Below, piece by piece: positions 7,232 through 33,912 of a DNA stretch of 64,000 bases. A program made the translations under genes and the position numbers. Numbering within the stretch: position 1 is the first letter of the stretch; each line of letters starts with the position of its first letter. The notes under the pieces were generated by a model. It was not told the origin of the DNA. It saw only the letters and a program-made list of their open reading frames with translations, and did not search any database. The DNA comes from a virus, in IMG/VR virus record IMGVR_UViG_3300031576_000008, positions 41,994-105,993 of that record; one strand, 5' to 3'.

Positions 7232-7999
7232 CTAGATCAGCGCGGCGGGGAACCTCGTCGCGATCGCGCCAACCAACATCCCGTTCTGCGCCTCGAAATT
7301 CTTGATCTCGCGGCGGACGACCAGCCGGTCGTGCTCGCTCTGGGCGATGATGGTCCCGGAGATGTCGGCGGAGATGAGGCGGTCGAGGAAGTCGCTGAAC
7401 TCGCTGCAGACGCCCACCTCAACCGCGAACCGGCGCTGATTGTCGTCCTGACGGTCCTCTTCGCAGAGCTTGTCCTCTTCGAACACCTCGTCGGCGATCT
7501 GCTTGACAAGGTGCAGCTTGGCGAGCTGGTGCACGAGGACGACCGTGTCGGCCATCATGTCGATCTTGATCTGGAAGGTCACCGAGTCTTCGAAATCGTT
7601 GTCTCCGATGTCGGCGACCTCCTCGGGTTCCGGTCTGGCGTCCGGCACGCGCATGACATCGGGATCATTTTCCTCAGCCTCCTCGATGCCGAGCGCATCG
7701 AGCTCCTCGTCGTTCGCGTACATCTCATCGGATCCGACGCGGCACGGGGCGACGTCGAGCTTCCTGAGCTCGTGCGAGGCGCGCATCATGAGGTCGTACT
7801 CGATGCGGGTCTCGTCGGTGGACCGGCCTTCCTTGATGATCTTCATGAGCTCCCAGACCCGCTTCTCGATGATCGCGAGATAGCCCGACAGTCCGATCTC
7901 GCCATCCCAGCCCTGCTCCGCCGCGATCTCCTTGACCCGCGTCATGAGCTTGTTCGCCTTCTCCTCGTTCTTCAGGAAGGCCGCTGCGCTGGCGTTCAT
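7232..7999 (-). CDS. Acidic helical protein of unknown function
   Basis: 255 aa from ATG 7999. It is rich in Glu/Asp, especially residues 105-145, and predicted to be largely helical. The start overlaps the stop of the upstream 75-aa gene (ATGA at 7999-7996), and an AAAGGAGAAATC ribosome-binding site lies inside that gene. A long acidic phage protein could be a DNA mimic, but nothing specific supports this. Confidence 0.6.
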   Translation of the reverse strand: MNASAAAFLKNEEKANKLMTRVKEIAAEQGWDGEIGLSGYLAIIEKRVWELMKIIKEGRSTDETRIEYDLMMRASHELRKLDVAPCRVGSDEMYANDEELDALGIEEAEENDPDVMRVPDARPEPEEVADIGDNDFEDSVTFQIKIDMMADTVVLVHQLAKLHLVKQIADEVFEEDKLCEEDRQDDNQRRFAVEVGVCSEFSDFLDRLISADISGTIIAQSEHDRLVVRREIKNFEAQNGMLVGAIATRFPAALI

Positions 8000-8223
8000 C
8001 TTGATTTCTCCTTTTTGATGTTCTTGAAAAGGGGCCGCACTTCCAGCGGGAGGAAGTAGAACCAAAGGGGTCTCCCATTCACGTACTGATAGGGATGCAG
8101 ATAAGCGGCCATGGCCGCCTCTATCGCCATTTTCTGGAGCGCCCTCTGGTAGGCTTCCTCGTATTCAGGCATCAGTTCATGGCGCGGCTTCTTGCACTTA
8201 GATCTCACAAGAACAGCCATCAC
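7996..8223 (-). CDS. Small hypothetical protein
   Basis: 75 aa, ATG 8223. It has a basic N-terminus (VRSKCKKPRHE) followed by an amphipathic helix (YQRALQKMAIEAAMAAYL) and a Tyr/Phe-rich end. It overlaps the next gene by 4 nt. No family recognised. Confidence 0.5.
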   Translation of the reverse strand: MMAVLVRSKCKKPRHELMPEYEEAYQRALQKMAIEAAMAAYLHPYQYVNGRPLWFYFLPLEVRPLFKNIKKEKSR

Positions 8224-8229
8224 GGCCTC

Positions 8230-8607
8230 CTAGACGCCGATCTCGCGTCCGATCTCTTCTTCCCTCCAAAGCGATTCTTCGACCGTCTCTCCATTGGGTC
8301 CCTTGAGCGCAAGGAAGAAACAGGGTCCGCTGGACCATGGCTCCTCCTGCACGAACTCCACGTAGATCCGCCCGTCCGGCAGGATGTAGCGATGCAGGTC
8401 GTACTCGATGTCGAACATGCCGTAGAACTTCTCCCCGGACAACTCACACTTCACCGGGCTGCCATTCACCGGCCGAGGCCCGATGGTTTCCTGACTGCCG
8501 TCCGGATAGATGCGGGTGATCGTCTCGGTGTAGAACAGCTCTTCCTTGGCTTCCAGCAGCTTCTTGGCACGCTCGCAAAGGCCGATGATCTGGTCAGACC
8601 GGCTCAT
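8230..8607 (-). CDS. Hypothetical protein
   Basis: 125 aa from ATG 8607. An N-terminal helix (IIGLCERAKKLLEAKEEL) is followed by beta-rich sequence with DRYILPDGRIYVE-like strands. The ribosome-binding site is GGAGTGAGC, which overlaps the stop codon of the preceding short ORF. No family recognised. Confidence 0.5.
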   Translation of the reverse strand: MSRSDQIIGLCERAKKLLEAKEELFYTETITRIYPDGSQETIGPRPVNGSPVKCELSGEKFYGMFDIEYDLHRYILPDGRIYVEFVQEEPWSSGPCFFLALKGPNGETVEESLWREEEIGREIGV

Positions 8608-8611
8608 GTGC

Positions 8612-8761
8612 TCACTCCTTCTCCGGCGCGGGCTCTTCACGCTTCCTGCTGAAGAGCGAGAGAATCCACGCCCCAATGAACTTCCTGAATCGGACGACGA
8701 ATCCGATGCCAGCCACCGAACTGGTGGCCACCGTGACGACGCAGTGCGGTCAGAGAGCCAT
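8612..8761 (-). CDS. Short membrane protein with in-frame UGA at codon 4 (recoded or broken)
   Basis: A GGAGGGGG ribosome-binding site precedes ATG at 8761. The fourth codon (8750-8752) is TGA. Beyond it the frame stays open for 45 codons and encodes PHC, a hydrophobic helix (VVTVATSSVAGIGFVV), a basic turn and a charged tail ending at TGA 8612. If UGA is read, residues 4-7 form x-P-H-C, a CxxC-like arrangement. Alternatives are a nonsense mutation, a sequencing error, or use of a start I cannot see. See the separate finding. Confidence 0.4.
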
Positions 8762-8775
8762 GATTCCCCCTCCAA

Positions 8776-9138
8776 TTACGGCGTGATCTTCTCGAAGTAC
8801 TTCGAGATCCAGATGACCATGTGCTCGTGGTCCTTCTCGATGATCCGGATCCCTTCCGTCTTCTGAAGGTCCTTGCGCAGGATGTTGAGACGCTCGATCA
8901 TGTCGCCATCGATCACGCGCCCCACGAGGATCGAGAAGTTGATCTGGATGCGCTTGGGGCCGTCCTTGCTCTCGGTGTCGGGAGCCGCCCCGATGGTGAT
9001 CATGTGCTCCGGCAGATGCAGGACGCCGGCGATCTTCTTCACGCATCCGTAGAGCGACGTCGGGTCGTCCGTGAACTTCTTGGCGAGCGGGATCTCCTTG
9101 CAGATCTTCTGTTCGAGCATCAGGTCCGTCTCGTTCAT
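8776..9138 (-). CDS. Hypothetical alpha/beta protein
   Basis: 120 aa, ATG 9138 behind AGGAGTCTGAG. A helical N-terminus is followed by alternating strands and helices (IQINFSILVGRVIDGDMI and VIWISKYFEKI). It is the first gene downstream of the terminator at 9163-9200. No family recognised. Confidence 0.55.
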   Translation of the reverse strand: MNETDLMLEQKICKEIPLAKKFTDDPTSLYGCVKKIAGVLHLPEHMITIGAAPDTESKDGPKRIQINFSILVGRVIDGDMIERLNILRKDLQKTEGIRIIEKDHEHMVIWISKYFEKITP

Positions 9139-12563: not shown

Positions 12564-13739
12564 CTAGATGCAATCCTTCGCAACGGTCATCGGCGCGTCG
12601 TTGTGCTCGAATTCGTCGGGACCCCAGTCTTCCATCGGGAGATCCATATCCGGCTTGCGGCCGACGCCATGGACCATCGTGAAGGCGGCTTCGATCGCCG
12701 AGCCCATCTTCGCGTTCTCCCAGATGATGTCGCTGCCCCACTTCGGCTTGTCGTAGTGCTGCGTGATGTAGGTGGCGCGCTGGTCGATGATGCCGTGGAC
12801 GCGGCGGTATTCCTTGACCCGCCGGCAGAGCCGGCGCGGCTTGCGGTTCGGGGCCTGATCGATGCGCTCCGACTTCTTGCCGCCGAGCAGAACGCCATAG
12901 GTGTACGCGAAGAAATGGCGGGCCCTGTCGCGGGCCTTGTAGATCAGCCTCTGGATCGCCCGGATCGGCACCGCGCGCAGGACCTCCCAGCGGAGATTCG
13001 AGTTCCAGTACTTCTGCTTGCCGTCGTAGTCGGGAATGAATGCACGAGTGCCGTTCTTGAGCCCGTTCTTGAGGATGTCGGAAACCTTGCGCACGTCACG
13101 GATGATGTTGAGCGGATCGTAGTAGTCGGGATACTTCAGGAACTCGTTCCGGCGCGAGACGCGCTTGGCGATGCCGGCCCAGAGCACCTTCTCGCCGGCC
13201 TCGGTGATCATCCAGCGATCAGAGTTTCCACCGAGCTTCGACTTCTTGGCCACGAGCCCGTCCTTCTCGGCGCGCTTGAGCATCCTCGCGACCGTCTCGC
13301 GCGGGAGCTTCGTCTCGATCACGATCTCCTTGACGGTCTCGAAGTTCGAGACGTAACGACCCATCTCGTTGTAGCGCGTCGGGAAAAACTGCTCGTCCGG
13401 ATCCACGATGGAGAGGTCGATATTGGTGTTGAAGTCGCTCGCCTCGAGCTGGTTGAACGGATAGACGTCGCTCGCATCGAGATCGTACGAGACCGGCCCG
13501 TTCTTCATGAACTGCGACTTCGACCGGTGCAGGCATCCGAACACGTGCAGCAGCTTGAGTGTCCAGCGGCTGCCATTGTTGTTGGAATGATTGAACGGCT
13601 GGTCGATCTTCCTGTCGACTTTCTTGGTCCACGACCGCCATTCGCGCTGTTGCTGTTTGAAAGGGTCGAGTTCCTTCTTCGAAGTCCGATGCCGCCTAGC
13701 TTTTGAGACGGCAGTACCCCCCTGCTTCACGAAAGGCAT
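12564..13739 (-). CDS. Winged-helix DNA-binding protein, possible replication initiator or regulator
   Basis: 391 aa from ATG 13739, preceded by GGGGGAGAA. Residues about 125-185 read as a MarR/GntR-like winged helix: KEIVIETKLPRETVARMLKR as helix-turn-helix, then KDGLVAKKS and the wing. The flanking regions are basic and unfamiliar, and a long Arg/Lys-rich segment is near 265-305. It lies directly upstream (in transcription order) of the PrimPol-helicase gene and immediately downstream of an attenuator-like leader. A regulatory or initiator role is inference. Confidence 0.6.
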   Translation of the reverse strand: MPFVKQGGTAVSKARRHRTSKKELDPFKQQQREWRSWTKKVDRKIDQPFNHSNNNGSRWTLKLLHVFGCLHRSKSQFMKNGPVSYDLDASDVYPFNQLEASDFNTNIDLSIVDPDEQFFPTRYNEMGRYVSNFETVKEIVIETKLPRETVARMLKRAEKDGLVAKKSKLGGNSDRWMITEAGEKVLWAGIAKRVSRRNEFLKYPDYYDPLNIIRDVRKVSDILKNGLKNGTRAFIPDYDGKQKYWNSNLRWEVLRAVPIRAIQRLIYKARDRARHFFAYTYGVLLGGKKSERIDQAPNRKPRRLCRRVKEYRRVHGIIDQRATYITQHYDKPKWGSDIIWENAKMGSAIEAAFTMVHGVGRKPDMDLPMEDWGPDEFEHNDAPMTVAKDCI

Positions 13740-13747
13740 TTCTCCCC

Positions 13748-13921
13748 CTAGCCGGCGTGAAAAACAAAAACCCCGCTACAGGACGGGTGCGCGGCGCAAT
13801 CAGTTACTGTCCGGGAGGATTCCCAGAAGCAAACGAATTGGTGCGCGTTTGAGGAAGGTTTACGCGCACCGCGCCCTGTAGCGGGGTTTCGCTTTTTCGG
13901 ACCTGCGTTGTCAGAGAGCAT
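13748..13921 (-). CDS. Possible leader peptide ORF overlapping a terminator hairpin
   Basis: ATG 13921 sits 6 nt after AGGAG. The ORF has 57 codons and stops at TAG 13748, right before the ribosome-binding site of the winged-helix gene. It is read through both arms of a perfect 14-bp inverted repeat, which is unusual for a conserved protein. A short leader ORF whose translation controls the downstream gene is one explanation; a chance ORF over a structured RNA is the other. Confidence 0.4.
   Translation of the reverse strand: MLSDNAGPKKRNPATGRGARKPSSNAHQFVCFWESSRTVTDCAAHPSCSGVFVFHAG
13762..13888 (-). promoter_or_regulatory. Attenuator-like leader: long terminator hairpin with alternative pairings
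   Basis: Arms at 13769-13782 and 13875-13888 are perfectly complementary over 14 bp. On the minus strand the stem is followed by a U-rich run (TTTTTGTTTTTC). Inside, GGTGCGCGT at 13840-13848 pairs with ACGCGCACC at 13862-13870, but a second copy of GGTGCGCG at 13786-13793 could pair with the same segment. The two folds are mutually exclusive. The element lies between a sigma70-type promoter and the winged-helix gene. Confidence 0.6.
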
Positions 13922-13980
13922 CGCTGCTCCTAAAAATCCAACCCCGACACAGAAACCGCCTGCGAACCTTCCTGACTTGA

Positions 13981-14009
13981 AGTCTATTCGACTGGTTATT
14001 TGGTGTCAA
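13981..14009 (-). promoter_or_regulatory. Sigma70-type promoter, minus strand
   Basis: TTGACA (14009-14004) is separated by exactly 17 bp from TAGACT (13986-13981), and the surrounding DNA is AT-rich. It points into the attenuator-like leader and the winged-helix and PrimPol genes. The -35 box matches the consensus fully, the -10 at 4 of 6. Confidence 0.7.
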
Positions 14010-14130
14010 GTAGAATTCGTCAAAAATGTTCGATTTTTTCGATTGGTCCCATGGCTGATGGGCCGCCAAACGCGCTAGCCGTTGGCCATCTCACGAGGTA
14101 CGTGAGGAAAACTACGCATCAATGGGTCTC

Positions 14131-14223
14131 TGTGACGTTAATTGAAGTGTAACTCCCCACTCCGTGGGGGTCTGGGGGATATAAGAGCTACGCAGGGGGA
14201 GTTACTCTTCAACTAACGTCACA
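14131..14223 (-). repeat. Imperfect 28-bp inverted repeat in the gap after the helicase gene
   Basis: Arms 14131-14158 and 14195-14223 match over about 26 of 28 positions (starting TGTGACGTTA and ending TAACGTCACA). The 36-nt interior contains a second small hairpin (CCCCAC-TCC-GTGGGG). No U-tract follows. The remaining gap (14010-14289) holds no gene I can support. It could be a processing site, protein-binding cruciform or small RNA. Confidence 0.5.
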
Positions 14224-14289
14224 CCGGGTATCACCGACACATCGTACTCGTAGGACGTGAGACATTCTGGCCCCAGTCTCGTACTCATG

Positions 14290-16959
14290 CTATCTAGTAG
14301 CATGTTTAGGCAACCGATCGGTGTCTGGTGCATTCTCAAGATTGAAGCCTTCCTTTCGACAAGTCCTGACCCGGTCCATCGAGTGCCTGAATGTGTACTT
14401 TGACCCAGTGTCGATGAAGTCGTGGATCGTTGCCTCAGTCTTGCCGGGCGCGATTCGAAGCGCGCGGCCAATCCTCTGGAGCACCCTTACCGCAGACTTT
14501 CCACCAGCGGCGAGCACAACTACTTCCAATTCGGGGAGATCCACTCCTTCATCGAAGATGGGGGTGGCCACGATGACTTCCAGTGCACCCGACCTCATGT
14601 CCTTTCTGGCCTGACTGCGGATCATGCCGGAGTGCTTGCCAGTCAAGATCTTGCAGCGGACGTTCTCCCCGCGCAGGATCTCGGCCACGATCCGTGCGTG
14701 ACGGATGGTGTCGCAGATGATGAGGCAGCGCCGGCCGACGTCTACTTCGGACATGGTGATGGATACGACCTCGGCGTTGCGGTTGGGGTTCTCCTCGATG
14801 AGCATCCGCCGGGCGTCCATGTATGGCGTCCCCGGCGGCACGGACTCGTTCTCGACCTTGTGGTACATGACCTTGCACTTTGAGCTCCACCCGATCGCCT
14901 GCAGGTCCTTGGTCTTGACCTGATCGATGATCGGGCCGGTCGCGGCCTCAAGGCGCAGGTCCCGGACCGGATCGCCGGTCTCCGGGGTTCCCGTGAGTCC
15001 GATCCTGTAGAAGGCTGGAATCGCCTGCGTCACCTTGTACCACGTGGCTGCAGCACCCGTCCGGTGGGCCTCGTCGAGCATGATGACGTTGGCATCCTTG
15101 ACCAGATCACAGAAGTACCGGAGCTCGTCCTGCACAGTCTGGGGCATGATGATCACGAACTTCTGGTCGGGCTTGATGTCGTCCCAGCAGCCGTCTCCAA
15201 AGAGAGCAGCCTTCTGGCCGGTCCGGAGCTTGATGCGCTCCGAGGTCTGGTGCAGCAGGTCCTTCCGGTGGACGATCCAGATGCACTTTCCGGCGATGTG
15301 GGAAGCGATCGCGATGCCGACCTCGGTGTTATGGGTGACGAAATTCTCGACGAGGAAGCTGTGGGTATCCTCGATCTCGATGTCCCATGTCTGTTTGAGG
15401 CCGACGTTTCGAACCTCCTTCACGACATCCCAGCCGACCGAAGATTTCGCCATCGACAGTAGGAGATCGTCATCCAATGCGGTTCCAAGCTTCTCGGCCA
15501 ATCCACGGGACATGAGGGAGTCCGGCAGATAGGACATGCTCGTCTTGATGGGGGCGTTCCAAGCCGGCGAGGTGTCGCGCCCGATGCCATAAGGCCGCGA
15601 ACGCCATTTTGAGGCGTATTCCATCGTGCGCAGCGGGAGGCGGTCATGACCGCTGTTCTTTCTGGGAGCCAGCGCCATCTGCAAGGCGGCCGTCTTGCCT
15701 AGAGGAGGACAAGCGCTCAGGCCGGACACTGAGCGCCTGAGCGAGGCATCGAACTGGAATGCCAGTCGATCAGTAGTTTCTCCCTTATACGTGTACTTGA
15801 TGTGGCGTTCCCGCAGCTTCCCGAATACCCCAAAGCGTAGAAGGAGATCGCGGATGTCTTCAGCCAAGGACTTAGAAACGCTCGTGAAGCTGAAGTCCCC
15901 CCGAGGCATGGTGATTGATCCATCACAACCCAGATAGGCCGACAGAAGATCGGCCACTCGCGCTTTCGGCCAGCTGAAGATGCAGGACGGCACGAACTTT
16001 TCGTGCGCATTCTTGCCCAGCAGTCCATATCGTTCTAGAATCTCGACACAGGCAGGCCGGGGCCTGTGGGCACCTCCTCGAGGCCCCCTACGAACCCTGT
16101 AGTCGACCCTGTCGACGTAGACGAGTTCATCACCGAAGAATTTGACTACCCTCTTCAGCGTCTCCAAACGAGTTGCGTCGGCCACCGAGAATCGCAGAAG
16201 CGTGGAATTAGTGCCATTGCCATCGCCCAAATAGAATCCCAAAAGCAGGGCTTCCTCGCTGCTAGGTCCATCCTGATTGCCGTCGACTTCGATCTTGTCG
16301 GCCACGCCAACAAGCATGCCGGGCTTCAGGTCTTCTGCATGGGTCCATTCATCCGCGCCAGTCAGGAACGGATGGTCATGGGAGACGATGACCGAGTGCC
16401 CACGCTTCGTGATGACTTCGACACAATCCTTGAGTCCATTGCTGACCAAGGCCTTAACGGCGGAAGGCTTGAGATCGTGCGAGATTCTGTCATACCCAAA
16501 AACGCAGTCTCCCTGCTGCAGCTGCTCAATAGCTGTCCGCCGGCCATCGGAGGTCGTCAGCCTCATTCCGCTGGCGACGCATTTGCCGGCGTTCACGGCC
16601 AAGGCAAGGATCCCCCTAGCCTTGTCGAGCGCGATCTTGATCGCCTTCTCCTGATGATCGGCGAAGGTGATGTCCTTCAGGATCTTGGCGTTGTACTCCA
16701 CCGTCGGGGGCCGGACGCGCTCGTCGATGACCCGGGCGATTGGGATGATCTTCCTGATGCGAGTGAGCATGCCCGTCGGGAAGGTGCCACGGATGGGGTC
16801 CACGGGGTGCCAGCGGCCGTCCCAAAGCGGGCGGTGCCGGCGGGCGTATTCCGCTCCGGGAAATTCGACCGCTGTCGCCGTGTCGAGCTTGTAGAGCAGT
16901 TGCCGATCGCACTCGATCTTCGAGACGGCGTTCCCGACCCTGATGATGGGCTGTTCCAT
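14290..16959 (-). CDS. Superfamily II DNA helicase (UvsW-like) interrupted by an intein
   Basis: 889 codons from ATG 16959. The host protein is a DEAH/DEAD-type SF2 helicase: N-terminal domain, a Walker A split as AGK-intein-TEVG, VIMLDEAHRTG (motif II), a GLTGTPETGDP motif III, and a C-terminal helicase domain with a VLQRIGRALR motif VI. After intein removal the protein is 471 aa, the size of phage UvsW-type branch-migration helicases. It is the first gene of the leftward operon starting at the 17.0-kb dyad and is divergent from PolIII alpha. The ribosome-binding site is weak. Confidence 0.88.
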   Translation of the reverse strand: MEQPIIRVGNAVSKIECDRQLLYKLDTATAVEFPGAEYARRHRPLWDGRWHPVDPIRGTFPTGMLTRIRKIIPIARVIDERVRPPTVEYNAKILKDITFADHQEKAIKIALDKARGILALAVNAGKCVASGMRLTTSDGRRTAIEQLQQGDCVFGYDRISHDLKPSAVKALVSNGLKDCVEVITKRGHSVIVSHDHPFLTGADEWTHAEDLKPGMLVGVADKIEVDGNQDGPSSEEALLLGFYLGDGNGTNSTLLRFSVADATRLETLKRVVKFFGDELVYVDRVDYRVRRGPRGGAHRPRPACVEILERYGLLGKNAHEKFVPSCIFSWPKARVADLLSAYLGCDGSITMPRGDFSFTSVSKSLAEDIRDLLLRFGVFGKLRERHIKYTYKGETTDRLAFQFDASLRRSVSGLSACPPLGKTAALQMALAPRKNSGHDRLPLRTMEYASKWRSRPYGIGRDTSPAWNAPIKTSMSYLPDSLMSRGLAEKLGTALDDDLLLSMAKSSVGWDVVKEVRNVGLKQTWDIEIEDTHSFLVENFVTHNTEVGIAIASHIAGKCIWIVHRKDLLHQTSERIKLRTGQKAALFGDGCWDDIKPDQKFVIIMPQTVQDELRYFCDLVKDANVIMLDEAHRTGAAATWYKVTQAIPAFYRIGLTGTPETGDPVRDLRLEAATGPIIDQVKTKDLQAIGWSSKCKVMYHKVENESVPPGTPYMDARRMLIEENPNRNAEVVSITMSEVDVGRRCLIICDTIRHARIVAEILRGENVRCKILTGKHSGMIRSQARKDMRSGALEVIVATPIFDEGVDLPELEVVVLAAGGKSAVRVLQRIGRALRIAPGKTEATIHDFIDTGSKYTFRHSMDRVRTCRKEGFNLENAPDTDRLPKHATR
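15328..16581 (-). mobile_element. Intein with LAGLIDADG endonuclease, inserted in the helicase Walker A
   Basis: Residues 127-544 of the helicase ORF. It begins with Cys127 after AGK, contains a SHDHPFL B block and ends THSFLVENFVTHN before Thr545, as in canonical class 1 inteins (Cys1, His-Asn end, Thr+1). LLGFYLGDG and LLSAYLGCDG are the two LAGLIDADG helices, so it probably encodes an active homing endonuclease. Insertion at the P-loop is typical because the site is highly conserved. Confidence 0.9.
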
Positions 16960-25928: not shown

Positions 25929-26479
25929 TCTTCGTGGGCGTAGATCCGGGGAAAGACGGCGGCATTGTCGCCCTTTCGAAGGATTCGAAGATCCTCGAGA
26001 AGTGGAAGCCCCCGCTCATTACGGCGACTAAAGGCAAGACCAAGGACGAGTACGACATCCCGGCCCTCAAGCAGATCTTCGAATTCTCCAAATTGCAGGC
26101 CCGGATGGAATGGGGCGACGAATCGATCATGATCGTCCTCGAGAAGGGCCAGCCAATGCCCATGGCTGGCGTGGCTGCCCAGTTCCAGCGCGGGTTCGCC
26201 TTTGGGATGTATCAGGCGCTCTTCGTCGGTCTGGGGGTCAGCTATCACGTCGTGCCTCCTAGGACATGGCAGAAGGCCATGTTCGCCGGCGTATCCGCCG
26301 ATGACACCAAGGCGGCGTCCATCCTCGTCTCCAAAAGGCTCTGGCCGAGCGAGAACTGGAGGCGGACGGAGAAGTGCAGGACCGACGACGATGGATACAC
26401 CGACGCCGCTTTGCTCGCTGAATATGGCCGGCGGACGCTGGCTACTCCTTCGACAAGTCCGGCAGCTGTTCGCGTATAA
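25925..26479 (+). CDS. RuvC-like Holliday junction resolvase
   Basis: 184 aa. It begins MIFVGVDPGKDGGIVAL (Asp7 of the RNase H fold), has IMIVLEKGQPMP with the second acidic residue, VVPPRTWQKAM, and DDDGYTDAALLAEYG with the terminal acidic residues. This is the typical phage RuvC/Poxvirus A22-like pattern. It closes the plus-strand replication-recombination operon and should resolve recombination intermediates before packaging. Confidence 0.85.
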   Translation: MIFVGVDPGKDGGIVALSKDSKILEKWKPPLITATKGKTKDEYDIPALKQIFEFSKLQARMEWGDESIMIVLEKGQPMPMAGVAAQFQRGFAFGMYQALFVGLGVSYHVVPPRTWQKAMFAGVSADDTKAASILVSKRLWPSENWRRTEKCRTDDDGYTDAALLAEYGRRTLATPSTSPAAVRV

Positions 26480-26822
26480 GCCTGCCGACCCGCCGGAGAT
26501 CCCGCCCGTCTCCCTCAAGGAGCACCTTGAGCGTGTCTTCCTTCATGGCGTAGGGCAGGAGATCGAGGATCTCATGGACGAGCGCCGTCTCGTAGGCGAG
26601 ATCCAAGACGGGCTTGTCATGCCCCATGATGGGGATCCGGATCTGGTTCCACTCCCGCTCCTTCTTGCGGTGGCGGGCGGCCCGGACCTTGGCTCGGCTT
26701 TCAGCGACGTCTGGATCACCGGGACGCCGGCGCTCGGCCAGCGCGCGGCCAAGCGCCTCTTCCTGACGGACGTCGTCCCTGTCAAAGCCGACAACGGTGC
26801 CAATGCGCCGATACTGTGGCAA
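26442..26822 (-). CDS. Basic hypothetical protein (TTG start)
   Basis: 126 aa from TTG 26822, chosen because AGGAAGGAGCC precedes it and an extended -10 promoter lies upstream. The product is basic in the middle (KVRAARHRKKERE), with a helical end. It converges on and overlaps the RuvC-like gene by about 38 nt. Function unknown. Confidence 0.5.
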   Translation of the reverse strand: MPQYRRIGTVVGFDRDDVRQEEALGRALAERRRPGDPDVAESRAKVRAARHRKKEREWNQIRIPIMGHDKPVLDLAYETALVHEILDLLPYAMKEDTLKVLLEGDGRDLRRVGRLIREQLPDLSKE

Positions 26823-26853
26823 GGCTCCTTCCTTCCTCAAACGAGCGAAGGGG

Positions 26854-26882
26854 AGTATAGCACCTACTTTCTGTAAGGTGAA
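26854..26882 (-). promoter_or_regulatory. Extended -10 promoter, minus strand
   Basis: On the minus strand, TGCTATACT gives an extended -10 (TATACT at 26859-26854). TTCACC lies 17 bp upstream as a weak -35. It is placed between the RadC-like gene's terminator and the small basic gene, giving that gene its own transcript. Confidence 0.55.
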
Positions 26883-26883
26883 C

Positions 26884-26925
26884 AAGAAAAAGATGGGCCT
26901 GCCGGCCCTGTCGACCGGCAGGCCC
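26884..26925 (-). terminator. Intrinsic terminator of the ubiquitin-like/RadC operon
   Basis: A perfect 11-bp stem GGGCCTGCCGG / CCGGCAGGCCC with a 9-nt loop is followed on the minus strand by a U-rich run (ATCTTTTTCTTG). It begins 12 nt after the RadC-like stop codon. Confidence 0.85.
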
Positions 26926-26936
26926 CGTTCCATCCA

Positions 26937-27464
26937 TTAGCGTATTACGAACCCGGTGGACACCCTTGAGATCATCTTGAGCGTCTGACTCCGACTCCGC
27001 TTGTTGAGCTTGTGGCCGGCGAGGTTGAGGACGTACAGCGGCCCCTTCTGGAACACCGTGCCAGCATCCTTGAACGAATACGACTCGTTCTTGCCGACGA
27101 CGATGTGGTCCAAGAGGGGCATCCTCGCCGCCTTGCCGACCGAGAACACGCCCTCGGTGAGCGCGATGTCCTCGACGGTCGGGACGGCCCTTTTCTCATA
27201 CGGGTGATTGTGACAAAGGATGATCGCCTTCGTCTCCCGGATGAGCGCCTCCCTGAAGATGTCGCACGTGTCGAAGCAGCAGCTTTGTGAGTTGCCTACG
27301 GCGGCAACCTGCACGTAGCGGGCCACCAAGTCAGGGGTCAGATGGATGACCACCATGACTTCTCGTGGGAGGTTCCGAAACTCCTCGAGGAGCTTCATAG
27401 CATCCGAGGGGCGTCCGATGATCGGCTCCCCCTCGACAGGTCGGACGGCCAATTCGTACTTCAT
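26937..27464 (-). CDS. RadC/JAB-domain metalloprotein
   Basis: 175 aa. The RadC-type JAB motif is CHNHPYEKRAVPTVED (HNHP plus the downstream Asp), with LLDHIVVG after it, as in RadC. The N-terminal helix-hairpin-helix of full RadC is missing; only the JAB domain remains. It is the last gene of the ubiquitin-like operon and provides a second JAB fold alongside the Mov34-type protein at 28.65 kb. It could be a peptidase or an anti-restriction-like protein. Confidence 0.8.
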   Translation of the reverse strand: MKYELAVRPVEGEPIIGRPSDAMKLLEEFRNLPREVMVVIHLTPDLVARYVQVAAVGNSQSCCFDTCDIFREALIRETKAIILCHNHPYEKRAVPTVEDIALTEGVFSVGKAARMPLLDHIVVGKNESYSFKDAGTVFQKGPLYVLNLAGHKLNKRSRSQTLKMISRVSTGFVIR

Positions 27465-27507
27465 CGGTCGCTTCCCCCTGTATTGGCATGCGGGTCTTCG
27501 ATGACGA

Positions 27508-27537
27508 GGGAGGAGGGGGACCGCTCCCCCTCCTCCC
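27508..27537 (-). terminator. GC-rich hairpin after the ubiquitin-like gene
   Basis: A G-rich arm (GGGAGGAGGGG) and its complement enclose a short loop, just after the ubiquitin-like stop codon. No U-tract, so it may weaken rather than end transcription before the RadC-like gene. Confidence 0.4.
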
Positions 27538-27551
27538 CTTGCTGATGCGTG

Positions 27552-27785
27552 CTAGCAGCCCTTGGTGCCGGCGGTCCGGACGAACTCCACCAGATCGCCG
27601 TCCTTCACGATGTAGCTGTCCTGCACCGGGAACGGCTCGCCGCCGTTCTGGGACACGGTCGCCGGGGCCCCCGCCGGGATGTTGAGCTCGTAGGAGAGCA
27701 TGTTCCTGAGCTCGCCGACCGACTTGCCGACGTACTGGTCGCCGATCGGCGTGGACGACGGGCCCGAGCGAACCTGCGCAGCCAT
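27552..27785 (-). CDS. Ubiquitin-like beta-grasp protein (PRTRC protein C-like / MoaD-ThiS-like)
   Basis: 77 aa from ATG 27785 with GAAGGAGGATCCC upstream. Pattern: VGKSVGELRNML helix, PAGAPATVSQNG, then DSYIVKDGDLVEFVR, the classic final strands of ThiS/MoaD/ubiquitin folds. The end is RTAGTKGC; as I remember it, PRTRC system protein C ends in a similar GTKG motif. There is no GG terminus. It lies immediately downstream of an E1-like gene, a JAB gene and two E2-like genes. It is the likely modifier of a conjugation system. Confidence 0.75.
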   Translation of the reverse strand: MAAQVRSGPSSTPIGDQYVGKSVGELRNMLSYELNIPAGAPATVSQNGGEPFPVQDSYIVKDGDLVEFVRTAGTKGC

Positions 27786-27861
27786 GGGATCCTCCTTCTG
27801 AGGGGTTGAAAATGAAACCAAACTGAGACGAACTTCTCACGAGTTGCTTGGGAAACTGCTT

Positions 27862-27877
27862 GCGAGTAACGGCCGTT
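27862..27877. promoter_or_regulatory. 16-bp perfect palindrome at the end of the E1-like gene
   Basis: AGTAACGGCCGTTACT overlaps the stop codon of the ThiF-like gene and precedes the ubiquitin-like gene by about 75 nt. It could be a protein-binding site or an mRNA hairpin separating the two cistrons. Confidence 0.4.
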
Positions 27878-28640
27878 ACTTGCGTGCCACCATCTTCTTC
27901 TTGGCGAAGCCGGAAACGCCCCGGTTGTAGGCCAGCGCGCTCTTCTTCTTCGCGTCGAAGAACACTTCACCGACCGCCTTCAGGTTCTGCGCCATCACCT
28001 CCTTCCCATGCGGGATGTCTTCCATGATCTGGGTGACGTACGTGGCTGCCCATGCCGCCACCATCATGTTCGTCACGGCCAGCTGACCGCCGCCCGGAAG
28101 CCTCGCCCTCTCCTCACAGGAGAGCTCGCCCGGATTCTTGTCCTTGGGCGTGGCGATCTCCGGGTGCGTCTGTTCGAGCTTCTGCGTGATGTCATCGCCG
28201 TCGAATCGAGCGTACACCTGCACGTTGCCGTCCCACATCTCGTTGCCGCCGTGGACGAGGATGACGTTCTTCCTCTTGGCGGCCTGCTGGCTGACGAGCA
28301 GCTTCGTCGCGGCATTGTCGACGAAGAGGAAACTGAGCATGTTGTCCTTGATGGCATCTTCGATGTTCTTCTTCGTGACGAACTTCGACTGCGGCAGGAC
28401 CGCCAGATCGGGGAACGCCCGCTTGATCCGGTCGGCGTACACCTCCGCCTTGGGCTTGTTCTCGTCCTCCTCGAACATGTCCTGCCGGGGCATGTTGTCC
28501 TTGGTGAACTCGTCTCCATCCCAGAGGACGAGCTCCCTCGGCATGCCCTTCTGGTAGACCATCGTCCGGCACAGGATTGGCCAGAAGTACGACCAGATGC
28601 CGCCCAGTCCGATGACGGTCACATTCTCCAGTTTCATCAT
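27876..28640 (-). CDS. ThiF/E1-like adenylating enzyme (PRTRC ThiF-like)
   Basis: 254 aa from ATG 28640. The Rossmann start VTVIGLGGIWS (8-17) is followed by LVLWDGDEFTKDNMPRQ (38-53), the E1/ThiF/MoeB signature with Asp41, Asp43, Asn49 and Arg52-Gln53. A candidate catalytic Cys is at position 175 (ELSCEERARLPGGG). Such enzymes adenylate the C-terminus of a ubiquitin-like protein. The modifier gene is next downstream, and the E2-like and JAB genes are upstream. Confidence 0.85.
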   Translation of the reverse strand: MMKLENVTVIGLGGIWSYFWPILCRTMVYQKGMPRELVLWDGDEFTKDNMPRQDMFEEDENKPKAEVYADRIKRAFPDLAVLPQSKFVTKKNIEDAIKDNMLSFLFVDNAATKLLVSQQAAKRKNVILVHGGNEMWDGNVQVYARFDGDDITQKLEQTHPEIATPKDKNPGELSCEERARLPGGGQLAVTNMMVAAWAATYVTQIMEDIPHGKEVMAQNLKAVGEVFFDAKKKSALAYNRGVSGFAKKKMVARK

Positions 28641-28649
28641 TTCTCCCTG

Positions 28650-29897
28650 TTAGGTGCCCGAATGCCCCAGATCGCCGCTCGTGACGTGGTTGTGCTCGTA
28701 TCCCTTGAGCGGGCACTTCTCGCCGCAGTCGGGCGTCAGGCTCAGGATTTCGGTGATCTTGACTTCTCCCTCCTTGGTCTGGCCTCCTTCCTCACTCTTG
28801 ACCTCATTCTTGTCGGAGGACGTCTCCGATTCGATCTCTCCCACGAGCACGTCGTTGGTCATGCTGGCCACGGACTCGACGATGGTCTGCTCGTGGACCG
28901 GCTTCTTGCATTCCGGGCAGTGGAAGGTCACGACTTCCTTCTCGCAGCCCTTGTTGTCGCACTGGAACAGGGCGCGTTTGGACTTGTCCGACGCGAAGAC
29001 GCTCGGGTCCTGCGACCAGATCTCGTAGGCGTCCATGATGATCTTCTGCGGATCGCTCATGAACGCGTCGCTGACCTCGTCGTTCATCGACTCGACCTGA
29101 TCGATGTGGTCCTCCGGGAAGAGGTGTTGCGATCCCTTCTCGAACTGCCCACGGCGGTTCCTCGACGAGCCCCTCCAGTCTTCTCCATGGCGGTAGCGGT
29201 CCGGCCAGTAGTTGTGGATTGTGGTGACCGGCTTGAGCTTGGCACAAGCGTCGCAGTTGCCGACGTGGAACCTCTGCTTCCATTCCTCGGGGAAGTCGTC
29301 GTCCCCGTCACAAGCCGAGAAGTCGAACACGTGGTCGGGGTTGATTGAGAAGCGGTTGCCCCGGATCGTGCCGTAGACCATGGGGTCGCAGGTCATGATC
29401 GTGAAGTCCCGGACGACGATGAAAAGGCCGTTGTTCTTCACCTCGTCCTTGTGATCGGTCCCGGAGTGCTCGGACGACCCGAACTTGGGATGGCTGTGAA
29501 CGTCGCCGACGATTCCGCAGGCCTCTGCGGGGTGCATCTCCGGGTGGTAGCAGACGCCGCCGGCCGAGTCCCACTGCTCGGGGCAGATGAGCCCCCACTT
29601 CTCATTCCTGTACGTGAAGGCGATGAATCCCTCGCTCTTGTGCTCGTCGTAGCACCAGCGCAGGAACTTCAGGGCCTTCTTCCAGAGGGAGATCGGGATC
29701 GGCTTGAACTTGATGTAGATCTCCTCCTCGACCTTCGGCTTGGACGCGTCCGCCTCGACCCTGTTCCAGCAGTGGTAGATTCCGTCCGCGATCTGCATGG
29801 CATTGGAAAAGAAATCGCCCTTGAACTTCACGACTCCCTTGTAGAGGTCATCCTCGTACTTCTGGAAGATGCCGTTCGAACCGACGATGAGGTCCAC
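28650..29897 (-). CDS. JAB/Mov34 metallopeptidase with C-terminal zinc ribbons (PRTRC protein A-like)
   Basis: 415 aa from ATG 29897. The JAB core has Glu89 and the metal motif HSHPKFGSSEHSGTD (134-148), i.e. H-x-H-P...S-x-x-D, then NNGLFIVVRD. PRTRC system protein A carries a very similar motif. The C-terminal half is an addition: CDACAKLK, CDNKGCEKEVVTFHCPECKK and a terminal Cys-rich end. JAB proteins in ubiquitin-like systems process the modifier or remove it from targets. The start lies 24 nt downstream of the E2-like gene stop. Confidence 0.82.
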   Translation of the reverse strand: MDLIVGSNGIFQKYEDDLYKGVVKFKGDFFSNAMQIADGIYHCWNRVEADASKPKVEEEIYIKFKPIPISLWKKALKFLRWCYDEHKSEGFIAFTYRNEKWGLICPEQWDSAGGVCYHPEMHPAEACGIVGDVHSHPKFGSSEHSGTDHKDEVKNNGLFIVVRDFTIMTCDPMVYGTIRGNRFSINPDHVFDFSACDGDDDFPEEWKQRFHVGNCDACAKLKPVTTIHNYWPDRYRHGEDWRGSSRNRRGQFEKGSQHLFPEDHIDQVESMNDEVSDAFMSDPQKIIMDAYEIWSQDPSVFASDKSKRALFQCDNKGCEKEVVTFHCPECKKPVHEQTIVESVASMTNDVLVGEIESETSSDKNEVKSEEGGQTKEGEVKITEILSLTPDCGEKCPLKGYEHNHVTSGDLGHSGT

Positions 29898-29920
29898 GTG
29901 TGCTCCTTTCAGGTTTGGTA

Positions 29921-30751
29921 TTAACGGCGACGCGGAGTGGACTGTATGAGCTTGCGGACGAGAAGACCCGTGACGTCCTCTTCCTGCTTGGCTTCAGGAT
30001 CGGCATCGTCTTCATCGTTCCCGCACATGTGCGAGATCACTTCTGACAGCGTCCAGTCATCGAGCAACCATGGCAGCTTGAGGACGGCTCTGGGATCTCT
30101 CTTGGAGATGATTTCCCAGCTCTGCAGGAAGCAGGCCGTCGGATCGCCGTTCTCGGTGGCGATTTCGCAGAACTCGGCGCACGTGTGCTTCCCGGCCTGT
30201 CTGACTTCGGCGTCCGGGATGTAATCGGCGAACTCGGTCATGTCGCTGGAGAAGTCCCGCGAGAGGAATGTATTCATGTACTGCTGGGCCGTCTCCATGA
30301 TCGAGCCGCGCACGAGTCCCCGATTTTCTCCGATGCAGATGTGGCCGTAGTCTTCATAGCTGATGTTGGGCATGGGAAGCATGCCGACGAAATCGCGCAG
30401 AGACTTCAGCGGGGCATTGGCGCTCACAGCATGCGCCCTGACAAGCGATCTCTTGCGGAAATAGAAAAGCAGATAGCTGTGCGGCCAGACGAGCGAGTAG
30501 ATGTGCCGTTTCCGGCTGTCGAGGTCGTTGTACCCGACCAGACGCAGCTTGGGGGACAGATAGGCCCCCAAGATCGTCTCCTCGCCGATGAGCGGCATGA
30601 CGAATGCGCATCCCATCTCCGATGGCCAGAAGAACTGGCAGGTCTGCCCCGCCCCGACGATTTTCATGAAGTCCTTGGTCCTACCCTTGGCCGTGATCCT
30701 CCCTTCGATGGTCATCCATTCGCCGTTCTTGATGAAGATCATCTGATCCAT
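29921..30751 (-). CDS. E2-like protein 1 (Prok-E2 family D / PRTRC protein B-like)
   Basis: 276 aa. The region PMPNISYEDYGHICIG with Cys139, followed by TAQQYMNTFLSRDF, matches the end of the UBC-like fold of PRTRC protein B, where a conserved Gly-x-x-Cys-x-Gly is followed by a segment resembling FfxSxFtH. It is 30% or so longer at the C-terminus, which is acidic. A paralogue lies upstream at 31026-31757; both place Cys at residue 139. It probably carries the activated modifier. Confidence 0.75.
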   Translation of the reverse strand: MDQMIFIKNGEWMTIEGRITAKGRTKDFMKIVGAGQTCQFFWPSEMGCAFVMPLIGEETILGAYLSPKLRLVGYNDLDSRKRHIYSLVWPHSYLLFYFRKRSLVRAHAVSANAPLKSLRDFVGMLPMPNISYEDYGHICIGENRGLVRGSIMETAQQYMNTFLSRDFSSDMTEFADYIPDAEVRQAGKHTCAEFCEIATENGDPTACFLQSWEIISKRDPRAVLKLPWLLDDWTLSEVISHMCGNDEDDADPEAKQEEDVTGLLVRKLIQSTPRRR

Positions 30752-30761
30752 GCAGGTCCTC

Positions 30762-31025
30762 CTACGGCCGTTGCATCCGCGCGGCCGTCTGAATCTCGGT
30801 GAGCAATTCCTGCATCTGGGTCAAGTCCGCCGATGCCCCCAAATACTGGTTCTTGATCAGCCAGTCCCTCTGCAGGTCGAGGATCTGGGCGCGGACGATC
30901 CCGAGGTTGGCATTCGTGATCATCCGTCCCGGGTCCCGCAGGACCTGTTCAAGCGTCACCATCTGCCTCCCGCGCTGCCGCACGAGCGCCGACCAGAGGG
31001 TGCGAAAAGCGATGTCATCGCTCAT
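30762..31025 (-). CDS. Small helical protein between the two E2-like genes
   Basis: 87 aa, ATG 31025, overlapping the upstream E2 stop. Helical, with GRQMVTLEQVLRDPGRMITN and a Gln-rich C-terminal helix. Its position between two E2 paralogues suggests a subunit or adaptor of the conjugation system; no family recognised. Confidence 0.6.
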   Translation of the reverse strand: MSDDIAFRTLWSALVRQRGRQMVTLEQVLRDPGRMITNANLGIVRAQILDLQRDWLIKNQYLGASADLTQMQELLTEIQTAARMQRP

Positions 31026-31757
31026 CTAGGCCTCCTCTTCCTTGATGTTCCAGAGCTCCCGGATGATCGACTCCAGCGTGTGCTCCACGTGCCAATCGAG
31101 CGCGAGGATTCCGTCCATCCCCTTCTCATCGGAGTACTTCTGCCACTTATCGAGCATCTCCTCGTTGGCCTTGTAGAAGTCGTTCCGCCAGAGCTTCTGA
31201 TCCGGCTGGATCTCCTTGGGCACGAGGGTGAAGTGGTTGTTGATGTGGGCGGTGAACTCGCTCGTGAGGAAGTACTTGAGGTACGAGCCCGCCGTCTCGG
31301 CCGGATCCTGCGTGATCGGCCACATGGCCCGGGTGCCCGTGCAGATGTGCCCGTAGGGCAGCGACAGGTTCGGGAGGGCCGCCATCCCGAGCTGGTCCTT
31401 CATGCTCATGATCTTCTTCTTGGCCACGAGCGCATAGCCGTTTTCGATCGCGCCCCCACGGAAGAAGAGCGCGATGTACATGTGCGGCATGATGATCGAA
31501 TAGGCCGTGCGTGCGTTCGTGTTCTCGTTCAGGTACTGAATGACCCGCTTCTTGGGCTCCATGTACATCAGGAAGAAGCGGCGACGGTCGTGCTGCCCGA
31601 ACGCGGCGCAGCCGGCATCGCCGTACGGCAGGAAGACCGGGGCGAAGCTGAACCGGTTCTGCAGGGACTTGAGGAGTTCGCTCATCGGCCCGTTCGCCAC
31701 GATGCGTCCTTCGAGCGCGTACCACATGCCATCGCGCGCGAAGAGGATCTGTTCCAT
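31026..31757 (-). CDS. E2-like protein 2 (Prok-E2 family D / PRTRC protein B-like)
   Basis: 243 aa from ATG 31757 (MEQILFARDG), with GAAAGGACCC upstream; the longer frame from 31799 lacks a site. LPNLSLPYGHICTG carries Cys139, and AGSYLKYFLTSEF follows, paralleling protein 1 residue for residue. It is the first gene of the conjugation operon after the 1-kb non-coding region. Duplicate E2s imply two acceptor specificities or a heterodimer. Confidence 0.75.
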   Translation of the reverse strand: MEQILFARDGMWYALEGRIVANGPMSELLKSLQNRFSFAPVFLPYGDAGCAAFGQHDRRRFFLMYMEPKKRVIQYLNENTNARTAYSIIMPHMYIALFFRGGAIENGYALVAKKKIMSMKDQLGMAALPNLSLPYGHICTGTRAMWPITQDPAETAGSYLKYFLTSEFTAHINNHFTLVPKEIQPDQKLWRNDFYKANEEMLDKWQKYSDEKGMDGILALDWHVEHTLESIIRELWNIKEEEA

Positions 31758-32798
31758 GATGGGTCCTTTCGTATGGGTTTTTAAGGGGAATGCTTCCATG
31801 CTTGGAGATCCGGGTTTCCAACGGTCTGGACTCCAGATCCCAGTCGAAGAGAGCGGCTGTATGCGACCGGAGACTGGGATCTGGAGTCCAGTCCGGTGGA
31901 AACGGAGGATCTTCCCCCATCTTCAGCCGCATGAGCGAGAACCAATCAGGCGGTGCGCCTGACGTGCTCTTTGTGCAAGAGCGTGCCATGGAAGCTTGTG
32001 ATGATCAGGCGGGCATCCATCGGATGCCCTCAAGCCGGAAAGCAATACTGAAGGCGGAGAAACACCGAGGCGTCAGCGCCGAGGTCTTCTCACGGGATTG
32101 CCCCGTGAGGATTCTCGCGTCCTACTGGTCTACTGCGTATCGTGCAATTCCGTGAGAAGATCGAGGCGATGTCGCCGGGGTGTTTCGCAGCCGAGCTCTT
32201 CTTCACTGGATGCACGTCATTCCAACCGGTCGGATCAACCGGCCTCGCCATACAGCGCGATGTGCTAAAGCTTTCCGGGTACTACTCCTTCATGCTTGAA
32301 CCCCAGCACGGCGGGACATCGCCGTGCCGAGGACGGATTCGGAGCCCTGTTCTTCAGGGGTCAGGGGTCCCCTAAGAACAGGGGCAGTAGCGGAGAACCC
32401 ACAGGGCGGGCAGGCGGCCCTTCCGGGCCGCCTGCCGTCCGTTCTCGGCCGGAGATGTCCGGCGGTGCGGGGTTCTTCAGCTGCTTCGTGGCATTGGGTC
32501 ACGAACCAGCCCGACGATGCGCCGGGCCATCCGCATGGATCGCTCCATGCAGCCAGTCCATGAAGGAAACTTTCACGCTTCGTAATGTACCGGTAGACTG
32601 CTTCTGAGACAGCCTGTAGTCCTGTCCGGCGATGCACCGGACATGGGATGAAGCATCCTATCGATTGCCGTCCCACCCGAGCCGTGCCCTGCTTCAACCA
32701 ATTTAAGTGACATTTCAAATACTCAGACATTCAACTGATTCGCCATTGTGGGCACCGGACGGCAACGTCACGAATGCAATCAACCCGTGCCGTGAAAG
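31758..32798 (-). other. 1-kb non-coding region packed with hairpins
   Basis: No frame here has a ribosome-binding site with protein-like sequence. I count at least twelve perfect or near-perfect hairpins, for example 31946-31962 (TCAGGCG-GTG-CGCCTGA), 32011-32029 (GGGCATCC stem), 32089-32109 (CTCACGGG stem), 32306-32327, 32347-32383 and 32409-32436 (12-bp stem, TTCC loop). The region lies between the reverse transcriptase gene and the E2-like operon on the same strand. It could encode a structured RNA or several. Confidence 0.6.
31806..31912 (-). ncRNA. Long hairpin resembling a retron msd or large regulatory stem
   Basis: The central arms 31826-31845 and 31872-31891 form a perfect 20-bp stem with a 26-nt loop. 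Pairing continues outward with a few mismatches to 31806 and 31912, giving a stem of about 40 bp. It lies 49 nt upstream of the second E2-like start and about 900 nt downstream of the RT gene on the same strand. Retron msd stems look like this, but known retron RNAs precede the RT gene. Confidence 0.5.
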
Positions 32799-33794
32799 TT
32801 AGATCGTTAGCCTTGCGTCGATGATCGCTTCAGCAGCCAAGAGGTCCTTCGAGTACTTGTCGAAGTACTTCGGATTGATATGTCGTGCGAACGAGAACCA
32901 GCCTTTGAGGCTCGTGAGCTCGTTCTTGAGCTCCTTCCAGTCGGTGACGGCCTTGCCCTCCTTGTTGACGCCGAGAACCGCCGCCTTCTTGATCTGATTG
33001 ACGGCGGCGCGATGATTCCTCCTCGCATCACGCGGGATGTTGAGCTTCTCGTTGATGACGATGCCACAGAGGATCTGCCGCCCGCTCTTCTTGCGCATGA
33101 CGTGGAACTTCGCGCGGTTGAGCTTGAATCCGTTGGCTTCGATGATCCGGCAGAGTCCTCCGACGATGCCGACGACCTTGTGCTTGTTGGATGAGAAGGC
33201 CAGATTGTCGGCGTAGCGCGTGTAGCGCCCGTCCTCCGGGCACTGCTCGCGCATGAACTTGGCCAGCTTGAAGTCGATGATCTTGAATGCCATGTTCGCA
33301 AGAAACGGCGAGAGCGCGCTTCCCTGCGGCAGGCCCAGCTTGAACATGTCCAAGGGTGACGGGATGAACGCGAACTGGATCAGGCCCAAGGGCGGCGGAA
33401 TGTCGAGAATCCTCTTCCCCGTGACGGCCTCGGTCGGGAAGATCTTGAACCGCGTCTCCAGTTCTGCAGGCGTCAGGTTCTCCGCCTCCCATGCCCGCTT
33501 GACGTGCTCGGGCGTGACGTTCGGGAAGAAGTCCTTGATGTCCAGATGCACGATGAAGTTCCGCCCGACGTGGGCGGAGGCGTGCTCCTTGATGCCCTTG
33601 TTGCGCACGAAGCCTGTGGCGTAGGGACCGGCACCGATCCCGGTGCGGTACTCGTTGTACAGCAGCTGACGCTGCTTCATCTTGAGGTCGTCGTCAGGCG
33701 CGTGGATGATGCGCAGTCCGCCGCTCGCCTTGGGAATGACGATCCGCTTGTAGCGCTTCTCCATCAAACGGCAGGCAGCCATGAGCTCTTCCAT
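32799..33794 (-). CDS. Retron-type reverse transcriptase with YADN active-site variant
   Basis: 331 aa from ATG 33794 behind GGGGGAGAG. Motifs: HVGRNFIVHLDIKDFFPNV (Asp85), LGLPQGSALSPFLANM (154-168), YTRYADNLAFSSN (191-203) and a thumb region LCGIVINEKLNIPRDARR resembling the retron VTG-type block. The usual YxDD box reads YADN. A DGR-type box was not seen, so retron or group II-like ancestry is favoured. The gene is followed by 1 kb of hairpin-rich DNA and then the ubiquitin-like operon. Confidence 0.85.
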   Translation of the reverse strand: MEELMAACRLMEKRYKRIVIPKASGGLRIIHAPDDDLKMKQRQLLYNEYRTGIGAGPYATGFVRNKGIKEHASAHVGRNFIVHLDIKDFFPNVTPEHVKRAWEAENLTPAELETRFKIFPTEAVTGKRILDIPPPLGLIQFAFIPSPLDMFKLGLPQGSALSPFLANMAFKIIDFKLAKFMREQCPEDGRYTRYADNLAFSSNKHKVVGIVGGLCRIIEANGFKLNRAKFHVMRKKSGRQILCGIVINEKLNIPRDARRNHRAAVNQIKKAAVLGVNKEGKAVTDWKELKNELTSLKGWFSFARHINPKYFDKYSKDLLAAEAIIDARLTI

Positions 33795-33912
33795 GATCTC
33801 TCCCCCATCCGGGCGGTTCGCCCGGGTCAAATAATTCGGTCCATCTGGCGACGAATTTCTTCGTATTTGCCTCCTAAAGATGCTTTAGGGGCCCTTTTTG
33901 GGCCCGCTGGAC

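Follow-up and report, generated by a model that had tools for sequence, protein, structure and literature searches.

A divergent phage PRTRC/type 6d cassette with two E2-like proteins, predicted to form a ubiquitin-like conjugation pathway

A compact operon carrying two E2-like genes

The window analysed here (64,000 nucleotides, corresponding to bases 41994-105993 within a 105,993-base IMG/VR virus record) has a G+C content of ~60%, and no tRNA genes were found in it. It encodes a bacterial-type DNA polymerase, a helicase and RecA-like genes. Its minus strand carries a tightly packed series of genes for, in this order, an E2-like protein (E2a), an 87-aa protein, a second E2-like protein (E2b), a JAB metalloprotease, a ThiF adenylyltransferase, a putative ubiquitin-like modifier and a RadC-like protein (Table 1). 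Intergenic gaps measure at most 23 bases from E2a to ThiF, 90 bases before the modifier and 87 before RadC. All ORFs named in an initial annotation, made from the letters alone, were recovered on this strand and in this tight order, and the motifs that it had listed (DGDEFTKDNMPRQ, HSHP...SGTD, YGHICxG in both E2s, and the tail AGTKGC) proved exact. E2a has an alternative, longer start at an in-frame ATG (31799); its Cys139 is numbered here from the Met at 31757.

The sole strong intrinsic terminator on the operon strand (26925-26895) closes the series, and E2a through RadC probably form a single transcription unit, as predicted from the sequence. A strong ribosome site (AGGAGG) precedes the modifier ATG at 27785, and a very stable GC hairpin devoid of a T-run (GGGAGGAGGGGGA/TCCCCCTCCTCCC; 27480-27552, minus strand) occupies the gap between the modifier and RadC, where it could perhaps set the ratio of their expression. 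A 163-aa ORF (26442-26933) was disregarded on account of a start that overlaps the terminator.

Table 1. Coordinates of the operon and of the features upstream of it in the window
Feature	Position	Strand	Remarks
Intrinsic terminator	26895..26925	-	13-bp stem, then ATCTTTTTCT; closes the operon directly behind RadC
RadC-like JAB protein, 175 aa	26937..27464	-	PF04002 E 7e-22; HNHP-x6-T-x2-D
Putative ubiquitin-like modifier (PRTRC C-like), 77 aa	27552..27785	-	ends ...AGTKG-C
E1-like ThiF adenylyltransferase, 254 aa	27876..28640	-	PF00899; Cys175
JAB/JAMM metalloprotease, PRTRC_A type, 415 aa	28650..29897	-	HSH-x8-S-x2-D intact
E2b, second E2-like protein, 276 aa	29921..30751	-	Asn129, Cys139, Asp170
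87-aa protein between the E2s	30762..31025	-	no homologue found
E2a (PRTRC protein B / Prok-E2_D-like), 243 aa	31026..31757	-	Asn130, Cys139, downstream His171
Non-coding stretch with many stable hairpins	31800..32798	-	between RT and E2a; ~1 kb, no evident gene
Retron-type reverse transcriptase (RT)	32799..33830	-	retron_St85 E 5e-46; PADLOC RT_XIII E 5e-53

Homology with plasmid and phage PRTRC cassettes

Iyer et al. 2006 (PMC1779556) described, as type 6d, an association of a ubiquitin-like protein, a helical protein, an E2-like protein, a JAB with an N-terminal domain and an E1-like protein, for which they predicted a conjugation relay. A tblastn search with the window ThiF, together with a weak E2 match, led to plasmid loci and to the Bacillus phage vB_BauM_KLEB27-3; the plasmid loci either are annotated as PRTRC (ParB-related ThiF-related cassette) E, C, B, A and ThiF or have the same layout without these names. 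A search with the ThiF alignment yielded 27 IMG/VR loci (L015-L041, several of them near-identical) with the same B-A-ThiF order, alongside weaker ThiF-only matches. The order E2-JAB-E1 of the window is the PRTRC B-A-ThiF order of these plasmid and phage loci.

When profiles built from the plasmid and phage cassettes, with the window excluded, were searched against the 507 window ORFs, the expected protein ranked first for every profile (E2a, E 2.1e-13; E2b, 4e-6; ThiF, 4.9e-33; JAB, 4.7e-19), and E2a and E2b were the only significant matches to the E2 profile. The modifier gave a marginal E value (0.01), yet the best among the 507 ORFs. Because profiles made without the window recover E2a, E2b, ThiF and JAB, chance resemblance is excluded for these proteins on profile evidence. 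Curated libraries matched ThiF (PF00899, E 1.5e-19) and RadC (PF04002, E 7e-22), and those searched gave no match for the E2s or the modifier. The equivalog cut-offs of NCBIfam PRTRC_A (19.3 of 101.8 bits) and PRTRC_ThiF (24.1 of 144.75 bits) were missed, the cassette being therefore a divergent relative and no PRTRC equivalog in NCBI's sense.

Judged by these similarities, the operon is a divergent, complete-looking phage PRTRC/Iyer type 6d cassette and does not represent a new class. The earlier view of it as a phage PRTRC-like variant stands as regards the cassette; carriage by a phage, however, is not peculiar to this genome, as 29 other phage records or fragments carry such cassettes. The genome itself is isolated: scans of viral contigs with E2a, ThiF, both E2s together, the GHIC stretch or a ThiF pair as queries returned no close relatives, and no relative of the window E2, ThiF or DNA polymerase was confirmed in IMG/VR. 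The scan with the DNA polymerase, intended to supply controls for RT frequency, gave no match. The only genome-contig match, in a Bacteroidetes MAG, turned out to be an ordinary MoeB-like gene. The literature searched contained no paper describing PRTRC cassettes in phages and none with a biochemical test of PRTRC/6d cassettes.

Some parts of the cassette differ in place or presence. A fast-evolving protein of 180-567 aa adjoins the E2 in 23 loci. The large helical protein that normally precedes the E2 is absent from the window, where E2a and the 87-aa ORF stand in its place; for the latter, Pfam, NCBIfam and PHROG gave no match over cut-off, and phmmer found no relative among the loci. The window modifier follows ThiF instead of preceding it.

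The modifier and its C-terminal tail

A small protein with the conserved C-terminal Gly of the family is present in the window, with marginal similarity in its core, and its AF2 model (pLDDT 48) is too poor for fold assignment. In both plasmids and phages, the family C-termini read GTKG or similar (GNKG, GVKG, ETKG or KPKG), after which some members have a short extra tail beyond the conserved Gly (C in the window; F, N, AI or ND elsewhere) and others have none. Tandem modifier precursors, a poly-ubiquitin-like arrangement of two to four units joined after GTKG or GVKG, occur in phages and in a plasmid (L015, 4708-5460; L020 and L021, 4981-5730; L007, 1745-2452; L005, 2544-2885; L035, 6070-6450), and the joining of units after TKG in Bacillus phages implies a processing protease. 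These extra tails and junctions therefore point to cleavage after that Gly and make GTKGC ordinary for the family, contrary to the initial annotation, which had taken it for a departure from GG. The terminal Cys of the window modifier is thus probably a removable tail, as in other members.

Two diverged sister E2 proteins

E2a and E2b share 27% identity (E 6e-28) and pair as sisters in a 29-member E2 tree (support 100/100), on branches of 0.56 and 1.89, respectively. Since they are sisters at such identity, the duplication is, according to this tree, ancient and arose inside this lineage. When 37 whole records were searched by profile, only the window had two E2s in the same cassette, so that the duplication noticed in the initial annotation is unique among the cassettes of these records. 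A second E2 located 20-33 kb from the cassette exists in Bacillus phages and in one plasmid, in which it adjoins its own ThiF. The possibility that the second window E2 is the counterpart of the helical PRTRC F was discarded, as the helical proteins have no E2 similarity and the two E2s are sisters.

Both copies keep the active-site Asn and Cys of the E2/UBC superfamily. Every row of a 29-row E2 alignment, both window copies among them, has the Cys and a Pro, and nearly every row has the Asn and the CxG Gly, as do both window copies. Classical E2s have an HPN...C arrangement with an Asn-to-Cys spacing of 8; the spacing is also 8 in the typical members counted, and 9 and 10 in the window E2s. 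At a site further downstream, a His is found in E2a and in several PRTRC B proteins, and an Asp in E2b and in most phage members; Iyer et al. 2006 placed the His of classical PRTRC B near the active site (PMC1779556).

The AF2 model of E2a (21 rows; pLDDT 77, pTM 0.73) comprises a helix, a beta meander and helices following the Cys loop. Foldseek searches with it gave no PDB match below 0.001 (UBE2N ranked fifth, E 0.63) and, in BFVD, four uncharacterised phage proteins. The UBC and beta-grasp folds are accordingly putative assignments, drawn from sequence motifs and from the family assignment in the literature.

E2a and E2b probably serve different targets or steps, and a division of labour between them is plausible. 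A rival view, in which a single E2 is active while its partner serves as a scaffold or pseudo-E2 (compare Mms2 with Ubc13) or is decaying, would agree with the longer branch of E2b, its lower score on the family profile and its Asp170 in place of the His, but each copy retains its Cys and Asn as well as the invariant Pro and the Gly of CxG, and an Asp at that site is also found in most phage members of the family; we consider it rather unlikely, if deserving of attention, and favour two working enzymes.

JAB, ThiF and RadC

The metal motif HxH...S/TxxD is kept by the window JAB and by all uninterrupted JABs of the family (26/26), and matches of the window protein to TIGR03735 (E 6e-4) and PF14464 (E 3e-4) stay below cut-off. 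Its C-terminal third is a Cys-rich extension (CDAC, CDNKGC, CPEC, CGEKC) with a sub-threshold zinc-finger match (E 0.04) that could bind zinc. An apparent pair of JABs in L029, L030 and L033 is a single JAB gene, interrupted within its metal-motif codons by a probable group I intron: the insert inside the HSH codons is non-coding (L033, 8695-8970; L029 and L030, about 7943-9078), and that of L033 matches a group I intron model with E 1.6e-5, below the gathering score.

In ThiF, D41, D43, N49, R52, Q53, K64, D108 and Cys175 are conserved over an alignment of 35 rows, Cys175 being kept in 34 of them. The glycine loop of the window protein reads GLGGIW, not GxGGTG, the sole such row among the 35.

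Of 32 cassette-bearing records, only 6 contain a RadC gene, in most cases kilobases away. RadC was consequently rejected as a constant partner of the cassette, and its place in the window operon is only suggestive. The extra JAB reported initially does lie in the operon, but does not belong to the core of the system, in which the PRTRC_A-type JAB probably acts as the maturation protease; its tail-cleaving activity is proposed by analogy with JAMM biology and from Iyer et al. 2006.

A reverse transcriptase and a structured stretch upstream

The RT gene upstream of the cassette encodes a YADN active site instead of YADD (YGDN in L024). RTs were detected in eight cassette phages (the window, L022, L024, L031, L033, L035, L051 and L052), in every case no more than 13 kb from the cassette and on the same strand, a closeness with p about 1e-5 under uniform placement and with near relatives dropped; the stop of ThiF and the start of the RT overlap in L024. 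None of five plasmids has an RT. In L051, a Bacillus-type phage, a retron-like RT gene (12899-16000) is apparently split by a group II intron with its own RT.

Between the RT and E2a, the non-coding stretch is dense in GC-rich hairpins, with 49-nt and 32-nt arms and several perfect stems of 7-12 bp, and its fold z-scores range from -8.6 to -2.5 over 31800-32599 and reach -1.0 over 32600-32799, making 31800-32798 a candidate structured RNA. Because phage genes cluster by function and time, we treat the linkage between RT and cassette as a lead and not as a result. That the RT, the structured stretch and the twin-E2 pathway form one functional locus, in which reverse-transcribed DNA or structured RNA would regulate or couple to tagging, is a long shot.

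A proposed conjugation pathway

We think it moderately probable that the operon works as a PRTRC/6d-type conjugation cassette with a JAB-E1-E2 relay, each catalytic step being modelled on the protein families concerned. The PRTRC_A-type JAB would clip the terminal Cys of the 77-aa modifier, exposing ...GTKG; ThiF/E1 would adenylate the modifier Gly and then load the modifier on Cys175, from which it would move to Cys139 of E2a or E2b, and these would join it to lysines, or to other groups, on target proteins, from which the JAB might also detach it. As for the targets, our guess would be host proteins or replication proteins during infection.

Alternatively, the modifier could be a sulfur carrier, converted by the E1 into a thiocarboxylate that donates sulfur for the thiolation of tRNA, nucleotides or cofactors, the JAB serving for processing in the manner of ThiS/MoaD/CysO-like systems. 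The window ThiF is nearest to ThiF/MoeB by curated models and PDB sequences, and the DGDLVEF segment of the modifier looks ThiS/MoaD-like by eye, but sulfur transfer would leave two E2-like proteins with a conserved Cys without a function, the operon showed no rhodanese, cysteine desulfurase or thiolation enzyme, and type 6d was kept apart from sulfur operons by Iyer et al. 2006 (PMC1779556); we regard this alternative as improbable. It is likewise quite unlikely that the cassette is a counter-defence or decoy against host ubiquitin-like defence (CBASS Cap2/Cap3, Bil) instead of a stand-alone tagging system, since, even if host E1/E2/JAB systems do act against phages (PMC10097602) and the window E1 has weak local matches to CBASS E1-E2 models, these matches reflect general E1 similarity, plasmids carry the same cassette far from defence genes, and the cassette is a complete pathway by itself.

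If the conjugation relay is real, bacterial viruses employ, while infecting, a ubiquitin-like tagging system of their own. In 2006, PRTRC/6d cassettes were put forward as genuine ubiquitin-like pathways of bacteria, a prediction that the phage cassettes make directly testable, offering as handles a minimal six-gene set and two diverged E2s that can each be inactivated singly, while the modifier tails and natural poly-modifier fusions reveal the exact processing site.

Comparison with known systems

Among ubiquitin-related systems with defence functions or similar gene content, Bil (BilABCD) resembles the window in combining a ubiquitin-like protein, E2, JAB and E1 in one operon. However, the window E1 is a single-domain protein of 254 aa whereas BilD has two domains, and the window E2s lack, after Cys139, the CEHH motif reported for the BilB E2 (PMC11354881), the comparison being with the published description of BilB. 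CBASS encodes a fused E2-E1 protein, Cap2, beside a CD-NTase, in contrast with the separate E1 and E2 genes of the window. The last gene of the operon has the HNHP motif in common with the RadC family (PF04002) but differs from it in being short (175 aa) and in lying in an operon with a conjugation cassette.

Every enzyme class of Iyer type 6d is present in the window, as is the modifier's C-terminal Gly; the window departs from that type in its duplicated E2 and in the helical protein, which has either been lost or shrunk to the unrelated 87-aa ORF. With the PRTRC of plasmids (TIGR03735-03738) it has in common the ubiquitin-like protein C with a GTKG tail, proteins B and A and ThiF, as well as the B-A-ThiF gene order; unlike PRTRC, it has two B proteins and a modifier behind ThiF, has neither protein E nor the large helical protein, and scores far under the NCBIfam cut-offs. 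Bacillus phage vB_BauM_KLEB27-3 and related IMG/VR phages carry, like the window, a phage-borne B-A-ThiF cassette, but one with a single E2, four tandem modifier units and the large helical protein.
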